NCBI RefSeq assembly: GCF_014697615.1 | Contig: NZ_JACJSD010000004.1 | Coordinates: forward strand, 1-64,000 | Direction of reading: 5' to 3' | DNA: 64,000 nt | Source of the DNA: Nostoc sp. FACHB-280 | GTDB taxonomy: Bacteria; Cyanobacteriota; Cyanobacteriia; Cyanobacteriales; Nostocaceae | Shown here: piece by piece, positions 53,714 to 59,991 of the stretch | Layout: each line of letters starts with the position of its first letter | Numbering within the stretch: the stretch's first letter is position 1 | Position numbers and translations under genes: made by a program | Notes under the pieces: generated by a model | Told to the model about the DNA's origin: nothing | Seen by the model: the letters and a program-made list of their open reading frames with translations, nothing else | Databases searched by the model: none

Positions 53714-54151
53714 TTATTTTGGGTTAATATTTTTAGTTTGGGGCTGGGGTGGTATTGAAGATGGGCGTGGTGTCTGATGATTGCGTAAAAACAATAAAGG
53801 AATACTCAGTAAACCTAAAATCATCACCACTGCGGTGAGTATCCACACAGGTAAACGATTGGGTTGATAATCTCCCCGTTCAATTTGCCAGAAAACCTGA
53901 TTATATCGCCACGCGGCTAGGGCGATCGCACTTACTCCCACAATTACTAAAGCAACTCCTAAATTTTCCGAGTTAAATAAAGGATGAACCACGGGTTCTT
54001 GTTGGGTAATTGCTGTATTTAATTGGCGTAAAAATAGACCAAACCTGGCAATAGCAAAACCAAAACCAATCAAAGCAATAGAAGTTCTCAACCAAGCGAG
54101 AAAAGTTCTTTCATTGGCTTGATGTTCTCTCTGGCGGTCTATTTTGTTCAT
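53714..54151 (-). CDS. DUF202-family small membrane protein
   Basis: 145 residues of the DUF202 (YidH-like) family. Seen: REHQANERTFLAWLRTSIAL (family signature NE.T.LAW.RT..AL), GFGFAIARFGLFLRQ, then two further hydrophobic helices (VALVIVGVSAIALAAWRY; VWILTAVVMILGLLSIPLLF). Three membrane segments in all; C-terminal tail Pro-rich. It is the last gene of the operon, 12 bases after the DUF2063-like gene. DUF202 proteins have no assigned activity; in this operon a role as membrane partner for the Cys-tail proteins or the modifying enzyme is inference. Confidence 0.87.
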   Translation of the reverse strand: MNKIDRQREHQANERTFLAWLRTSIALIGFGFAIARFGLFLRQLNTAITQQEPVVHPLFNSENLGVALVIVGVSAIALAAWRYNQVFWQIERGDYQPNRLPVWILTAVVMILGLLSIPLLFLRNHQTPRPSSIPPQPQTKNINPK

Positions 54152-54163
54152 GAGTAAACTAAT

Positions 54164-54208
54164 CTACAACTCCTGATACTCTCCGCGCCTCCGCGTCTCT
54201 GCGTGAGA
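54164..54208. repeat. Intergenic repeat GCGCCTCCGCGTCTCTGCG encoding the tail
   Basis: TCTCCGCGCCTCCGCGTCTC then TGCGTGAGA is a widespread cyanobacterial repeat unit. It supplies the last codons of the DUF2063-like gene, so the protein's end has been replaced or extended. Confidence 0.7.
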
Positions 54209-54754
54209 TAATATTATATGACGTAAGTGCGATCGCCCCGACCAACGCCACCAGATTGCCAATGTTGGTTTTGCAGTAAAATCACGATGGATAGCGTAAC
54301 GCAACCAACAAAATTTTAAATAAACTCCAGGTTCATAAGTTAACAGCCAAGTTTGTTCATACCTCACTAAATCACCTATCCAAGCAGGTTCTAAGTTTTC
54401 ATTTTGCGCCACCTTAATCATAAAGTTAGCAAAAGCGATCGCATCATCCCGATGTTTTTTAATTCCCGTGGGTAAATAGGTTTCCGCATATCGCCAAAAC
54501 AAAGTATTAAAATCTTTCCCTAACGCCTTAGCAGTGCGGGGTAACAGTTCCCGTATTTCCCCTAACCGCTTCCACTTGAGAGAATTGGCAAATATATTGA
54601 CTTCCTGTGATGACACTTCCGCTAACTGCTGCACTTCATCATCACTCAAACCAAACTCCACACCCACCGCTTGCGGGTTGGCAAAAAAACGCCCTCGAAA
54701 TTCAGTATTGGTGTAAAGCTGGGCTAAAACTTGCTGGGTTTGTGCTAACCCCAT
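54164..54754 (-). CDS. DUF2063/HvfC-BufC-like partner protein of the MNIO oxidase
   Basis: 196 residues. N-terminal ~95 residues (LAQTQQVLAQLYTNTEFRGR; FFANPQAVGVEFGLSDDEVQ) have the helical DUF2063 pattern that recognises the substrate peptide for MNIO enzymes; the rest (~100-180) forms a second helical part. Good ribosome-binding site (TTAGGAG). A DUF692 gene precedes it, 188 bases upstream, as in bufferin and methanobactin-type clusters. The last ~14 residues (SHAETRRRGEYQEL) are encoded by a common intergenic repeat (see 54164-54208) and are not part of the family. Family call fairly firm from neighbour and pattern. Confidence 0.72.
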   Translation of the reverse strand: MGLAQTQQVLAQLYTNTEFRGRFFANPQAVGVEFGLSDDEVQQLAEVSSQEVNIFANSLKWKRLGEIRELLPRTAKALGKDFNTLFWRYAETYLPTGIKKHRDDAIAFANFMIKVAQNENLEPAWIGDLVRYEQTWLLTYEPGVYLKFCWLRYAIHRDFTAKPTLAIWWRWSGRSHLRHIILSHAETRRRGEYQEL

Positions 54755-54774
54755 CTTTGATAACTCCTAAGCTG

Positions 54775-54942
54775 TTAAATTCATATCTTTCTTGCACCAA
54801 GCGACTGAAGTCGCGGCTACATGAACAAAACCCGCACTTCGACAAGCTCAGTGACCACCTGCGCGGGTTCAAAACCCTTGATTTTCCTTTAGTCCGCGTA
54901 GGCGGACTTCGTTCTTATAGCCGCGAATTCCATTCGTCGGGG
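54775..54942. repeat. Palindromic dispersed repeats inside the MNIO operon
   Basis: Between the DUF692 and DUF2063-like genes: AAGCGACTGAAGTCGCGGCT, ACCCGCACTTCGACAAGCTC with later GCGCGGGTT, TAGTCCGCGTAGGCGGACTT hairpin, and TAGCCGCGAATTCCATTCG. These are typical dispersed palindromic units of cyanobacteria. They make a structured 170-base spacer in an otherwise tight operon. Confidence 0.7.
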
Positions 54943-55776
54943 CTAGTGCAAGATATGTGTGTTCATAATCTTTCGTGCTGTCTGCAATTCTTGGGCTATT
55001 TCTGTAAACGGAGGTAAATTTTCATCCCGTTCTAACACTATCCCTTTCACGGAAATGTGGGCGACAACTTCCGCCATTATTTGCCAAACTTCCGCAGGGG
55101 TTGACTGGGAATGACTATCAATTAATACACCATCGTGCCAATGTCCGCCGACGAAATGCAACTGTACAACACGTTCCCAAGGCAAATCATTGAGAAAATC
55201 TTGGATATCATAACCATAATTCACCGCATTAGTATGTAAATTGGTCACATCCAACAGCAACCCACAGTCAGCACGTTCTACCACTTCTGTCAAAAACTGC
55301 GCTTCGCTCATCTCTGCACCAGGAAGTTTTACCATATAGGTAATATTTTCCAGAATTAACGGCACATCAACAAAGCGTCGCACTTCGGCAATATTGCGAC
55401 AGAGTATATCTACCGCCTCTTTGGTGTAAGGTAAGGGTGACAAATGCCCAATATCCACACCGCCAGCTTTGGTAAAACAAATATGTTCACTCCACCAAGG
55501 CGGGTTAAGTTGTTTAATTAATGTTGCAAGTTTGCGTAAATAATTTGTGTCTAAACCTTCTGCACTACCCAGCGACAAATTAATGGCGTGGGGAACTATC
55601 GGGAAATGTGCAGCCAGTATTTCCAACTCTTGTTGTTTTTGTACTGGTGCATCAAGATAATGTTCTGCCACAATTTCCAGAAAGTCCACTTGCTGACGGT
55701 TGAGAAATAAATCACTTTTGAATGGTTCTCGAAAACCCAACCCGACACCCAAACTAGGAAGTTGAGATAACATCAT
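54943..55776 (-). CDS. DUF692 family multinuclear non-heme iron oxidase (MNIO)
   Basis: 277 residues, TIM-barrel fold. Members modify Cys in ribosomal peptides (MbnB, ChrH, TglH, BufB) to oxazolone, thiooxazole or other products using iron and O2. Seen: GVGLGFREP start, PHAINLSLGS (His) near 57, WWSEHICF near 94, LENITY near 141, LLDVTNLHTNAVNYG (Asp, Asn, His) near 172, QLHFVGGHW near 203 (H-x-x-G-G-H) and VLERDENLPPF near 248: the usual metal-ligand set is present. It starts 3 bases after the third TIGR04222 gene, and its ribosome-binding site GGTGGAGAC is made of the last Gly-Gly-Asp codons of that gene, so it is translationally tied to a Cys tail. Confidence 0.94.
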   Translation of the reverse strand: MMLSQLPSLGVGLGFREPFKSDLFLNRQQVDFLEIVAEHYLDAPVQKQQELEILAAHFPIVPHAINLSLGSAEGLDTNYLRKLATLIKQLNPPWWSEHICFTKAGGVDIGHLSPLPYTKEAVDILCRNIAEVRRFVDVPLILENITYMVKLPGAEMSEAQFLTEVVERADCGLLLDVTNLHTNAVNYGYDIQDFLNDLPWERVVQLHFVGGHWHDGVLIDSHSQSTPAEVWQIMAEVVAHISVKGIVLERDENLPPFTEIAQELQTARKIMNTHILH

Positions 55777-55779
55777 TTT

Positions 55780-56826
55780 TTAGTCTCCACCACAACCGCC
55801 ACAACCACCACAACCACCGCCGCAGGAACCGCTACAACCGCCACTACAGCCACCACCGCCACAGCCACCAGAACTACTATTTTGCCCATAGGCGGTATTT
55901 ATCACAGGTACAAAAATATTTTGATATCTGTCGTAGCGGCTTCCGGTGAGTAATTCAAAGCCATAAAGTGCGACAGCCAATTTGTATTCCAACTCCGACG
56001 GAATGCCAATTTCTACTTTTTGTTTTAACTGCGCGAAGGTTGTTTCGGGGATATCAGCTTGAATTTTCGGTTTTAATTGTCCAAATGTGACTTCGAGTTG
56101 TTTGAGATAATTTTTCCCCAAAGTGCTAAGACGAGGTATTTGAGAGAGACTGTGGAGAAAATAAACCGAAAATATTCCCACAATGATGAGATAAGCGACA
56201 TTATGGGAGTCATCTAATAACGCTACTACCAATTTAAAGCCACCTAACATCAGAATGATAGAAATCCCGATAAAGCTAACTAACTCTTTTCGGACTTGCA
56301 TTTGTTCAGAAGTTAGCAGTTGTTTATTTTGTAATTGTTGTTGATAAACTGTGCAGTGTGGCTGTAATTGTTTGGCTAATAACCATCCAGATGTTCTTGG
56401 TGTTGTCGGTGTAGCAAACCAATCAAATGCCTCACGTTGTATGGTTGTTAGCAGAGATACATCAGGATGATTTTTTGCTTGCTGGATAGATTCTTCCGTG
56501 ATTTGTAAATAACCGCGTTGTGACAAGTCCATCACTGCTACCTTTGCTACTCCCATTTCTTCAGAACGCAAGTAAGCAATTTCGTAAGGATCTGGTTCAG
56601 AGGGAATAAGAGGTAAAGGTTGATTTCTCGTAGGATCTTGCATAAACCAGCGACCAACTAACGCCGTGATGATGACAATAGCACCATAAAACCGCAGAAA
56701 ATCAACGTTATTCATGTCTGTGATGATTTTTGAGATCGCCACCACCAAACACATTACCAGTAAGATAATCAGTAACTTGAGTATGAGCGATTTTATAACT
56801 GTGCTGGGTACAGGTTTAGTTAACAT
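55780..56826 (-). CDS. TIGR04222-type membrane protein with 7-Cys Gly-rich tail (paralogue 3)
   Basis: 348 residues. Hydrophobic helices at ~12-32 and ~38-58, then PLPLIPSEPDPYEIAYLRSE at ~73-92 (shared by all three paralogues), a soluble part with QRGYLQITEE, then two more helices near 187-230, a linker, and the tail GGCGGGGCSGGCSGSCGGGC plus GGCGGCGGD with 7 Cys at 3-5 residue spacing. I recall TIGR04222 as a family of membrane proteins with low-complexity Gly/Cys ends. By neighbour, the tail is the likely substrate of the MNIO enzyme directly downstream; that is inference. Third gene of the operon, 46 bases after paralogue 2. Confidence 0.85.
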   Translation of the reverse strand: MLTKPVPSTVIKSLILKLLIILLVMCLVVAISKIITDMNNVDFLRFYGAIVIITALVGRWFMQDPTRNQPLPLIPSEPDPYEIAYLRSEEMGVAKVAVMDLSQRGYLQITEESIQQAKNHPDVSLLTTIQREAFDWFATPTTPRTSGWLLAKQLQPHCTVYQQQLQNKQLLTSEQMQVRKELVSFIGISIILMLGGFKLVVALLDDSHNVAYLIIVGIFSVYFLHSLSQIPRLSTLGKNYLKQLEVTFGQLKPKIQADIPETTFAQLKQKVEIGIPSELEYKLAVALYGFELLTGSRYDRYQNIFVPVINTAYGQNSSSGGCGGGGCSGGCSGSCGGGCGGCGGCGGD

Positions 56827-56872
56827 TCTCTACATCTCAATTTTTCAGACAGCCTGTTGTATGACATTCTCT

Positions 56873-57826
56873 CTAACCGCCACAACCGCCACCACAGCCG
56901 CCGCAACCACCACCACCACAAGAACTACCGCAGGAACTCCCACTACTGCATGAACTACTACTACAAGAACTACCGCCAGAACCACTACTACATGAACTAC
57001 TAGACGAACTACTGCGGCTACTTGTCGTAGAATAAGCCGGCGGAAAAAACGCTTTATAGTAAGCATCGTAAGCAGTTCCCGCCAAAGACTCAACACCAAA
57101 TAGTGCTAATACCAGTAAGTTGTTATTGACGATAGAAGTTTCGCGCAGTTTGTTGAAAGTGGTTTGAAGTTGTTGCAGATACCTTGTTCCGAGATGACTT
57201 AGGGGCGGATGGGGCTGACTCACAAACCACAGCAGATAAATAATGGATAATACGCCCATAATTATCAAAAAACCAACGTTGTAGCGTCCCTTACCCAAGG
57301 CTATCAGCAGCTTATAGCAACCGAAACTGAAAATCAGCATTGCCCCCATTAAGCCAAATTGAACGTTACGTATTTGCCATTTACCTGCATACAGTAATTT
57401 CTCATCATCCAACTGTTCTTGATAAGCAATGCAGAATGGTTGTACACACTCGGTAGCTAACCACAGAGATGTTTTAGCTGTAGCAGGTTCAGAAATTTTC
57501 TCAAAAACTTGCCGTTCGACTGGTTGTAAATTTGATATGTCAGGATGATCTGATGTTTTACTGAGAGTCTGTTCACTAACTTGCAAATAACCCTGCTGAA
57601 TCAAGTTGAATAATACTAAATGGGCAATTCCGGTTGCTTGAGAACGCAAGTAAGCGATTTTGTAAGGATCTGGTTCAGCCGGAATTAAGGGTAAAGGCTG
57701 ATTTTTTGTTGGATCTTGGACTAAACGCTCACACAATAACAAAGTTGCGATGATAACAACACCATACAATAGCAGAAAGTTCGGCCCATACATATCTGCA
57801 ACGAAATTGTGCAGTAATGTATCCAT
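56873..57826 (-). CDS. TIGR04222-type membrane protein with 8-Cys Ser/Gly tail (paralogue 2)
   Basis: 317 residues. One N-terminal hydrophobic helix (~14-30), [20 protein letters not shown] at ~43-62, IQQGYLQVSEQ, two helices near 160-210, LGTRYLQQLQTTFNKLRE, then a Ser-rich start (SSRSSSSSSSCSSGSGGSSC) of the tail, ending CGGGGCGGCGGGCGG. The tail has 8 Cys, unevenly spaced. AAGGAG precedes the start. It lies 105 bases after paralogue 1. The same remarks on role apply; tail composition here is shifted to Ser, as if an intermediate between the other two. Confidence 0.85.
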   Translation of the reverse strand: MDTLLHNFVADMYGPNFLLLYGVVIIATLLLCERLVQDPTKNQPLPLIPAEPDPYKIAYLRSQATGIAHLVLFNLIQQGYLQVSEQTLSKTSDHPDISNLQPVERQVFEKISEPATAKTSLWLATECVQPFCIAYQEQLDDEKLLYAGKWQIRNVQFGLMGAMLIFSFGCYKLLIALGKGRYNVGFLIIMGVLSIIYLLWFVSQPHPPLSHLGTRYLQQLQTTFNKLRETSIVNNNLLVLALFGVESLAGTAYDAYYKAFFPPAYSTTSSRSSSSSSSCSSGSGGSSCSSSSCSSGSSCGSSCGGGGCGGCGGGCGG

Positions 57827-57931
57827 TACTTTTACTCCTTGTTAGGAACAATTAATTGTCAAAATTTTGGTAGCGGTTGTTTAATTCATCTCGCTTTTTC
57901 AACTCTGCACAGTATTATATCATACTCAGTT

Positions 57932-59098
57932 TTAGCCACCACCGCAGCCACCGCCACCACCGCAAGAACTTCCACCGCCACAGGAACTTCCGCCACCACA
58001 GGAACTTCCACTACTGCAAGAACTTCCGCCACCACAGGAACTTCCACTACTGCAAGAACTCCCCCCACCGCAAGAACTTCCGCCGCCACAGGAACTTCCG
58101 CCACCACAAGAACTTCCGCCACCACAAGAACTCCCACTACTGCAAGAACTTCCGCCACCGCAAGAACTTCCGCCACCGCAAGAACTTCCACCGCCACTAC
58201 TATCTATGCTTGTGCTGGTATATTGTCCCGATGATGAAGTGAAATACTGAGCAAAATTAGCGTATTCAGTTCCATATAAAACGCCTGTACCAAAAATAGC
58301 CACAGGCAACAATATATTAAATTCTGTACCATCAGGATAATCTGATACAGGTTGAGAAATTTTGCTTTTGAGTTGTGTAAAACTTTGCTGGAGTTGGTTT
58401 ATATAAGCTGTTCCAAGTTGAGTTAGGCGTGGTGGATAACAGATAAATTGAATGATGACGAATGAGATTATTCCCATCATGAAGAGAAACCCAACATTGG
58501 TATATCCTTTAAACAAAGCTACGCCAAGTTTATAACCACCTAAACCGACAATAATTAAACTCCCTAGTTTATTGATTCTTCCTGCGGTTTCGATTAGTGT
58601 TGGGGGTGATAGAAGTTGCTCGTTAAGTAGTGATTGTTCGTAGACTTTGCAGTAGTAACTAATTTTAGTTGGAAGAGAGGAAAGCAAGATTTGACTAGCT
58701 GTTTGGGGAACTGAAAAATGCTCAAATACTTCACGCTCAATTGTAGATAAATTATCAGAGTTAGGTTGAGTAGGCGATCGCTCTATCGTACCGCGTTCAA
58801 TTTGCAAGTAACCATCCTGAAGCAAGTTAAATATAGCCAAGCTTATAACTTCATTTTCTCCACCACGTAAATATGCAATCTTATAAGGATCTGGATGAGT
58901 GGGAATTAATGGTAAAGGTAACTTTGCTGTTGTGTCGCTTTGTACACTCCAATAGGCGGCAAACATAGTTACAGCAATGAGACAACCATACAACACCAAA
59001 AAGTTCGGCCCATACATATTCGCAATGGGGTTACTCAATGGGTTAGGAACGGTCACTATCAGCAACATCGCTATAATTGCCAGTAATAACTTATCCAT
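57932..59098 (-). CDS. TIGR04222-type membrane protein with 14-Cys period-6 tail (paralogue 1)
   Basis: 388 residues, first gene of the operon. N-terminal helices ~4-18 and ~28-52, [20 protein letters not shown] at ~66-85, [11 protein letters not shown], helices near 185-235, then a region [18 protein letters not shown], and the tail from ~300. The tail consists of units GGGSSC (11 copies or so) and SSGSSC (3), with a final GGGGGC GGG: 14 Cys spaced exactly 6 apart. The start follows AGGAGTT. No signal peptide apart from the first helix. The strict period implies repeat expansion of an 18-base unit and possibly a regular surface for modification or metal binding. Confidence 0.87.
57935..58190 (-). 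repeat. 18-base coding tandem repeat of the Cys tail
   Basis: On the plus strand units like CCGCCACCACAGGAACTT and CCACTACTGCAAGAACTT follow each other 13-14 times. Codon choice varies between copies (TGC/TGT for Cys, TCT/TCC for Ser), so the array is not brand new although its length is likely to change. Confidence 0.88.
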
Positions 59099-59199: not shown

Positions 59200-59991
59200 T
59201 TACTCGCCACTTTTAATTCTCAATTTTGTCCCACATCTTTTACAAAAAGTCGCATCTAAATCATGAAAAGCTAACCCACAACCGGAACATACCGTTTCTA
59301 CCTGATTAGCATTTTTTACCAACCGCTTAATTAAATCTCCCACTTGCCAAGGAATTAAGGTGACACCTGTTAAAATCATCAAGACTGTCAACAACCTTCC
59401 TGCTTCCGAAATTGGTGTGACATCCCCAAACCCGACAGTCGTCATCGTGACAACAGAAAAATAAAACGCATCCAAAAATGTAGTGTAAACTTGCGGATTG
59501 ACTGGATGTTCAACTTGATAAATTAACCCAGAATAAATAAAAATAATTGCAAATAATGTAAACAATATCCGCACGAAGATTAAACTATCTTCGCTGCTGA
59601 CACTGGCAAACAAAAATTTCTGATCAATAAACCTAATTAATCTTAAAATCCGAAACCATCTCAGCAGGCGAATAAAACTGATATCTACTGCACCAAGAAA
59701 AAATGGCAATATCGCCATTAAATCTAAAATTGCATAAAAACTAAAAATATATTTCAGCTTGTTTTCGGCACTCCAGAGGCGAATTATATACTCTACTGCA
59801 AAAATTACCAAAATAGCAGTATCAATAAAATCAAGCTGTAATCTAATATTATAAGGAATATTATAAGTTTGGGCAACAAAAATGCCTGACGAAATTAGCA
59901 CTAAAGCTGCAATTGTCAGATTAATCAATTTTCCAGTAGGTGTTTCCAAGTCTGTTAAGTAAAATTCTGTTTTTTCTCTACTTATTAACAT
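59200..59991 (-). CDS. Voltage-gated-type potassium channel with C-terminal zinc ribbon
   Basis: 263 residues with six hydrophobic helices and a pore loop. Seen: helix S4-like RLLRWFRILRLIRFID with repeated Arg/Lys (~108-123), VVTMTTVGFGDVTP selectivity filter (~178-192; TVGFGD), then the S6 helix. After it, residues ~235-260 hold CSGCGLAFHDLDATFCKRCG, a four-Cys zinc ribbon that replaces the usual RCK or cyclic-nucleotide domain. Probably a K+ channel in the plasma membrane; gating by voltage is suggested by the charged S4. It lies 101 bases upstream of the Cys-tail operon on the same strand, so read-through is possible. Confidence 0.9.
   Translation of the reverse strand: MLISREKTEFYLTDLETPTGKLINLTIAALVLISSGIFVAQTYNIPYNIRLQLDFIDTAILVIFAVEYIIRLWSAENKLKYIFSFYAILDLMAILPFFLGAVDISFIRLLRWFRILRLIRFIDQKFLFASVSSEDSLIFVRILFTLFAIIFIYSGLIYQVEHPVNPQVYTTFLDAFYFSVVTMTTVGFGDVTPISEAGRLLTVLMILTGVTLIPWQVGDLIKRLVKNANQVETVCSGCGLAFHDLDATFCKRCGTKLRIKSGE

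Follow-up and report, generated by a model that had tools for sequence, protein, structure and literature searches.

Oxidases of the MNIO family related to the enzyme considered here convert repeated cysteines to copper-binding 5-thiooxazoles, each with a loss of 4 Da; the activity of one of them, HvfB, requires its partner protein, and peptides containing EGKCG, in which lysine precedes cysteine, have been shown to bear such rings (PMC13097082, PMC13419390). The chromophore of thiooxazoles is placed near 302-305 nm (PMC13097082, PMC13419390, PMC12452194). A survey by Antoine et al. (2025; PMC12452194) examined over 1,000 cysteine-containing proteins without signal sequences that are encoded before MNIO genes, assigned 40% of them to TIGR04222, proposed subsets of these membrane proteins, with tails called periplasmic, as MNIO substrates, and predicted 'PME-type 2' partners in at least 10% of the gene clusters that pair TIGR04222 with an MNIO. 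No experiment on a TIGR04222 protein was evident from titles or abstract openings among the literature matches listed. The present analysis concerns a module of this type located at positions 53714-59098, minus strand, of a 64-kb stretch of the genome of Nostoc sp. FACHB-280 (the window), in which three TIGR04222 membrane proteins with cysteine-rich tails (T1, T2 and T3; members of the family are hereafter termed T) are encoded beside one MNIO and its putative partner. The module is real, widespread and largely anticipated in print: the pairing of T with MNIO is not new because it has already been published as a hypothesis (PMC12452194). What is new is this distinct lineage, a partner with a leader-like N-terminus, and a likely cytoplasmic position of the tail that is at variance with the printed topology.

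Profile matches confirmed the coordinates and strand of six minus-strand genes in a row and, as originally predicted, the presence among them of three TIGR04222 proteins with Gly/Ser/Cys tails, all of which passed the 43-bit cut-off of the NCBIfam profile. The principal genes and their relevant segments are as follows.

57932-59098, minus strand: T1, a TIGR04222 membrane protein of 388 residues (84 bits) with an additional N-terminal hydrophobic helix.
57935-58210, minus strand: repeat-containing tail of T1, residues 297-388, with 14 cysteines (18-bp array, 14.3 copies, 80% match).
56873-57826, minus strand: T2, a TIGR04222 membrane protein of 317 residues (93 bits) with three predicted transmembrane (TM) helices (model, mean pLDDT 85.4).
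56876-57022, minus strand: tail of T2, residues 269-317, with eight cysteines and the C-terminal sequence CGGCGGGCGG, modelled at low confidence with no secondary structure.
55780-56826, minus strand: T3, a TIGR04222 membrane protein of 348 residues (74 bits) with an additional N-terminal hydrophobic helix.
55783-55890, minus strand: tail of T3, residues 313-348, its sequence holding seven cysteines and ending in CGGCGGCGGD.
54943-55776, minus strand: the MNIO, 277 residues, with nine of nine iron ligands (PF05114, E = 1.3e-91, 306.9 bits against a cut-off of 25).
54164-54754, minus strand: the partner, 196 residues, a DUF2063 relative lacking the Pfam signature, helical to residue 139 and then three-stranded, in a layout resembling the recognition element (RRE) of ribosomally synthesised and post-translationally modified peptide (RiPP) systems.
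54614-54751, minus strand: leader-like (NHLP/Os1348) N-terminus of the partner, approximately residues 2-47 (NF038399, E = 3.1e-8).

Searches of the whole genome at E ≤ 0.001 recovered one MNIO gene and three TIGR04222 genes, every one of them within this interval, so that their grouping is not a matter of chance. Alignment of the MNIO with TglH, read by eye against the ligand list of PMC10880893, confirmed the predicted integrity of the metal site: each of the nine iron-ligand residues (H63, H98, E143, D176, N179, H207, D220, H222 and E249) is present, and all are invariant among ten aligned MNIOs. The best NCBIfam match was the bufferin maturase BufB (NF050167), at 247.8 bits under a cut-off of 310.

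Ten MNIOs of the window's lineage were aligned and used to scan a genome collection, which yielded 76 loci. Upstream of the MNIO and on its strand, a Cys-tailed open reading frame (ORF) was found in 68 of them with a first filter and in 71 when the filter was relaxed slightly; in 65 of the 71 it is no more than 300 bp from the MNIO match. The predicted association of TIGR04222 with MNIO genes extends beyond the window, so that the genomic part of the refuting condition attached to the original prediction, a lack of such association elsewhere, does not hold. Of the 71 linked loci, 41 lie outside the cyanobacteria and 30 within the Cyanobacteriota; Acidobacteriota, Planctomycetota, and Myxococcota or Deltaproteobacteria are also represented, together with single metagenome-assembled genomes (MAGs) labelled Armatimonadetes, Bacteroidetes, Akkermansia and Sericytochromatia. 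A partner cluster was likewise recorded in 71 of the 76 loci, and at L140 and L143 at least a partner-like ORF had been missed by the clustering, which was applied to ORFs of 60 residues or more. Five loci have no upstream Cys-tailed ORF. For L119 and L149 a Cys-tailed T is encoded elsewhere in the genome, unlinked to the MNIO, and for L151 one is present on a different small contig. In the fourth, L171:6324-7294 in a Mojavia MAG, both genes are cut short: a T lacking its tail precedes a remnant made up of the final 76 residues of an MNIO, either a deletion or an assembly fault. The fifth, L174, comes from a genome in which T gave no match. Three acidobacterial loci (L138, L143 and L151) encode a conserved protein of about 280 residues between T and the MNIO or just before the MNIO.

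Within the cyanobacterial phylum (386 genomes), TIGR04222 was detected in 22 genomes and MNIO in 28. All nine genomes of the window's family with a short Cys-tailed T have MNIO and partner genes adjoining; three further family members (G191, G278 and G334) carry TIGR04222 proteins of other forms and gave no MNIO match. The other MNIOs of the phylum belong to other lineages, and six of eight scanned proteins encoded beside them match DUF2063.

The genes of the module are closely packed, with a median T-to-MNIO gap of 28 bp (65 of the 76 loci measured) and a median MNIO-to-partner distance of -10 bp, that is, an overlap (66 measured), which leaves little space for a short precursor gene. The original prediction that the locus has no such precursor was upheld to the extent that no small protein with DUF2282, EGKCG or Cys-Lys sequences was found among its ORFs of 60 residues or more. 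In the window, a further element lies between the MNIO and partner genes.

54740-54960, no strand assigned: a stretch that contains an interspersed repeat with 53 genome matches, counting itself.

The repeat separates two genes that overlap by about 10 bp in most measured relatives, and coincides with the last residues of the window MNIO, which differ from those of its relatives.

The T proteins were compared by means of an alignment of 61 sequences (58 of 67 relatives recovered with a motif filter plus the three from the window), every one of which matched the TIGR04222 profile at E ≤ 0.001. The tail cysteines proved near-invariant across several phyla, subject to the loose alignment of low-complexity tails, and in MNIO-linked relatives Gly or Ser directly precedes the cysteine in 477 of 488 cases. 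On the T tree the three window proteins are placed as old paralogues, T1 in a group of its own, and the nearest relatives of T2 are from Nostoc. Searched by fold against the PDB, the T model matched nothing at E ≤ 0.001; the best E was 0.38 and TM-scores were low. At L144:35-643, in a Sericytochromatia MAG on a contig shared with L093, a reduced T adjoining an MNIO and a partner lacks the central domain and retains the TM segments and Cys tail; from this single MAG, tail and anchor look like the essential part. A second T paralogue of Uabimicrobium (L183, genome G393), located elsewhere on the chromosome, has no Cys tail.

Characterisation of the partner as 'DUF2063-like' in the original prediction stands at the profile level and not at that of the Pfam signature. 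The DUF2063 (PME-type 1) signature gave no match to the window partner at E ≤ 0.1; comparison by hhalign of 50 partners (that of the window plus 49 of the 69 found) with six DUF2063-type partners nevertheless returned 97.2% and E = 3.2e-11, in one pairwise comparison. Remote DUF2063 likeness, absence of the signature and a gene placed after that of the MNIO correspond to the PME-type 2 description. Its structural model has a mean pLDDT of 92.1, with helices as far as residue 139 and three strands after them. A Foldseek search gave no match at E ≤ 0.001; among the best 50 of 189 rows MbnC had the top TM-score (0.40/0.43, E = 1.3), and neither 3dee nor 8hi7, sought there as a test for the NGO1945 and TglI folds, was present.

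The leader-like segment is shared by most of the partners compared. NF038399 aligned with residues 7-59 of the window protein at 33.6 bits, under its cut-off of 40, and matched the N-terminus of 39 of the 50 partners at E ≤ 0.01 as against none of the six DUF2063-type partners; by eye, planctomycete partners mostly lack the segment. No match above the family cut-off was obtained in 373 genomes of the phylum, in which the four best matches were all partners of T-MNIO-partner modules, the scan at E ≤ 0.001 missed the partner of G074, and stand-alone open frames of 82-92 residues also matched weakly. The partner profile additionally touched nitrile hydratase alpha at profile positions 8-35 (E = 0.0063). 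The partner was considered as a modified precursor in its own right and rejected, the window protein holding a single cysteine. Since the first helices of TglI dock its MNIO (PMC10880893), the segment may by analogy be merely a docking surface.

The reading that we judge somewhat more likely than not is that the MNIO/partner pair oxidises the tail cysteines, probably to thiooxazole-like rings, and that T constitutes a membrane-tethered soft-metal-binding array with its tail in the cytoplasm. The three genes would form a maturation module in which the multi-iron, O2-using MNIO binds the partner, the partner recruits T through its RRE-like C-terminal fold, and the two together oxidise cysteines in the disordered Gly/Ser/Cys tail. 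T would be the end product rather than a cleaved carrier, and would remain in the membrane: TM1 would run out-to-in, leaving the central soluble domain in the cytoplasm, and would be followed by a TM hairpin that returns the tail to the cytoplasm beside the enzyme. The best-studied related MNIOs make a thiooxazole ring on cysteine, and from homology to these a like chemistry is inferred as the likely one on T tails. The product would then carry sulfur heterocycles in a dense array on the inner face of the membrane, suited to a redox task or to the binding of a soft metal such as Cu(I). As regards the original prediction that MNIO and partner modify the Cys tails, the genomic linkage supports it well, the idea is one already in print, and the chemistry is argued from relatives. 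A bolder extension, possible and to our minds doubtful, is that a RiPP-type oxidase acts on cytosol-facing tails to produce permanent membrane-anchored heterocycles, its leader-like segment having moved to the partner and priming the reaction in trans; on that supposition the substrates would need no leader because the NHLP-type segment sits on the partner.

A number of observations weigh against the proposal that cytoplasmic tails are so modified. As regards chemistry, the tail cysteines are preceded by Gly or Ser and not by Lys as in the thiooxazole-bearing EGKCG peptides. As regards linkage, the figure for the 76 loci derives in part from the choice of query, the query MNIOs being themselves T-linked, and L174 has an MNIO and a partner in a genome with no T match. 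As regards topology, 26 of the 61 T proteins have a fourth hydrophobic stretch that clears a plain hydropathy cut and may be a fourth TM helix, with the tail outside, and the TM2-TM3 hairpin also carries lysine and arginine (mean 1.95). The remaining points, concerning Cys tails without an MNIO and the identity of the metal, are taken up below.

The position of the tail bears directly on the first alternative, that the MNIO does modify the tail, which finally resides in the periplasm (or thylakoid lumen) in bufferin-like fashion. That is the topology predicted in PMC12452194, and the fourth stretch speaks for it. Charge bias opposes it: mean lysine plus arginine counts for the 61 proteins were 0.15 in the N-tail, 2.44 after TM1 and 4.16 after TM3, with more after TM1 than in the N-tail in 59 of the 61 and more after TM3 than in the hairpin in 55. 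In the T2 model, TM-length helices span residues 14-35, 148-179 and 185-203 and a further helix 211-230, and the fourth stretch is represented only by short, broken helices (236-243 and 245-248) ahead of an unstructured, low-confidence tail. The additional N-terminal hydrophobic helix of T1- and T3-type proteins would hold TM1 out-to-in. Long forms of T, by our own reading, carry both another N-terminal domain and an extra hydrophobic stretch ahead of TM1. Together, charge bias and the T2 model favour three TM helices, N-out and C-in, with the tail predicted to be in the cytoplasm; the 'surface- or thylakoid-bound' product of the original prediction is therefore unsupported, and we regard a periplasmic tail as unlikely.

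The second alternative is that the tail remains unmodified, binding metal or forming disulfides, and that the substrate of the MNIO is an unlinked peptide. It draws on Cys tails that occur without an MNIO. Long forms of T (459-550 residues; L071, L073, L075-L079 and L184), which combine a Cys tail with an additional N-terminal domain, have no adjacent MNIO in any of eight cases (seven cyanobacterial and one planctomycete); among the seven genomes of cyanobacteria concerned, six gave no MNIO match at all. Two of these loci (L075 and L078) lie near contig ends; genome G253 is without an MNIO match, and the MNIO matches of G360 lie on other contigs. All seven cyanobacterial long forms have CGGC within the last 14 residues, and the planctomycete tail ends differently; Ser precedes cysteine in 6 of 35 cases in the seven long-form tails as against 220 of 488 in MNIO-linked tails. 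In the cyanobacterial long forms the shared N-terminal domain contains a motif around VDQVWHLHL; two of four long forms scanned gave a weak GRDP-like match (E = 0.058 and 0.18), below cut-off and not claimed. Short Cys-tailed T proteins of G053 and G399 also occur in genomes without an MNIO match.

An adjacent MNIO was recorded for short Cys-tailed T in 14 of 16 genomes and for long forms in none of eight, a difference for which the Fisher value (p = 6e-5) is only a guide because the rows are related. Left out of this count were T hits that were fragmentary, lacked a tail, ended differently or fell below threshold (those in G118, G191, G237, G278, G334, G406, G409, G443, G474, G495, G497, G530 and G535, two more in G053, and the paralogue L183). 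On a T tree built by a quick method, MNIO linkage required three changes of label, compared with a mean of 13.2 after shuffling; five MNIO-linked T rows sit among unlinked ones. From the sequences, the MNIO goes with some TIGR04222 branches and not with every Cys tail, given the long forms without MNIO and the small number of changes on the tree. This alternative is nonetheless distinctly unlikely: a Cys-tailed ORF precedes the MNIO in nearly all loci, in several phyla and often at close spacing, the genomes of L119 and L149 still hold a T where it is unlinked, and apart from the core no cluster of ORFs of 60 residues or more is common to more than 21 of the 76 loci. That the tail is a slippage-prone DNA repeat of little function, as the tandem 18-bp array of T1 might suggest, is scarcely credible in view of the near-invariant tail cysteines across phyla, even allowing for their loose alignment, and of the mixture of synonymous TGT and TGC codons that encodes them.

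The metal remains to be considered, and with it the genes that flank the module.

53714-54151, minus strand: a DUF202 membrane protein, 12 bp downstream of the partner gene (PF02656, E = 2e-20).
59200-59991, minus strand: a K+-channel-like protein of the Ion_trans family, 101 bp upstream of T1, with a weak C-terminal zinc-ribbon match.

The DUF202 gene is present at the window locus, as the original prediction of an operon had it, and is not part of the core: it was rejected as a system member because it occurs in only 5 of the 76 loci (four Nostoc and one Fortiea); within the window's genus it was found in one genome besides that of the window. The K+ channel gene, found at 21 of the 76 loci and exclusively in cyanobacteria, frequently as part of a run that also includes a histidine kinase and a response regulator (so named from inspection of their sequences), was read as synteny, as were ten more recurrent neighbours, including peptide deformylase, aldehyde dehydrogenase, UPF0102, haem-binding and CAP proteins, four of the ten having no or only weak matches. 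The scan of these ten yielded no protease family and no metal-transport family, the latter a further point against the preferred reading. The copper binding suggested originally thus found no genomic support among them, and copper as the bound metal is accordingly a guess.

If the proposal is correct, RiPP chemistry would reach beyond small secreted or cleaved peptides to resident membrane proteins, in a form shared by filamentous cyanobacteria with members of several other bacterial phyla. The system is compact, its three genes are expressible, and a single-MNIO genome would serve three substrates; the long forms of T, which have no MNIO beside them, offer a natural control for an oxidase-free tail, and the disagreement with the printed account is a clear one, the tail being placed inside rather than outside.

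Comparison with described systems places the module closest to the TIGR04222-MNIO clusters of PMC12452194, with which it shares Cys-tailed TIGR04222 membrane proteins adjoining MNIO genes. Those clusters, as described there, are mostly from Actinomycetota, many seemingly without a partner gene, and their tails are held to be periplasmic; here, by way of contrast, a partner accompanies all but a few loci, its N-terminus is leader-like, three old paralogues stand beside one MNIO, and the tail is predicted to be cytoplasmic. The terms cyano, NHLP, Os1348 and DUF202 have no occurrence in the main text of that paper. With the bufferins and captophorins (BufABC, HvfABC and FonABC) the module has in common an MNIO and a DUF2063-type partner directed at repeated cysteines, but the precursors described for those systems are mostly small peptides in which a Sec signal accompanies Lys-Cys, Cys-Lys or DUF2282 sequences (PMC13097082, PMC13419390), whereas here they would be multi-pass membrane proteins with Gly/Ser around the cysteines, and the BufB score falls below cut-off. 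With TglHI and MbnBC the comparison is structural: the iron ligands are the same, and the helical N-terminal and three-stranded RRE-type domains of TglI match the layout of the partner model (PMC10880893), while the resemblance to MbnC, foremost by TM-score among the best 50 rows, has a Foldseek E-value that is not significant. The substrates of these two systems are small leader peptides (PMC10880893), unlike the T proteins, which in the reading preferred here carry their modified cysteines as permanent residents of the membrane.

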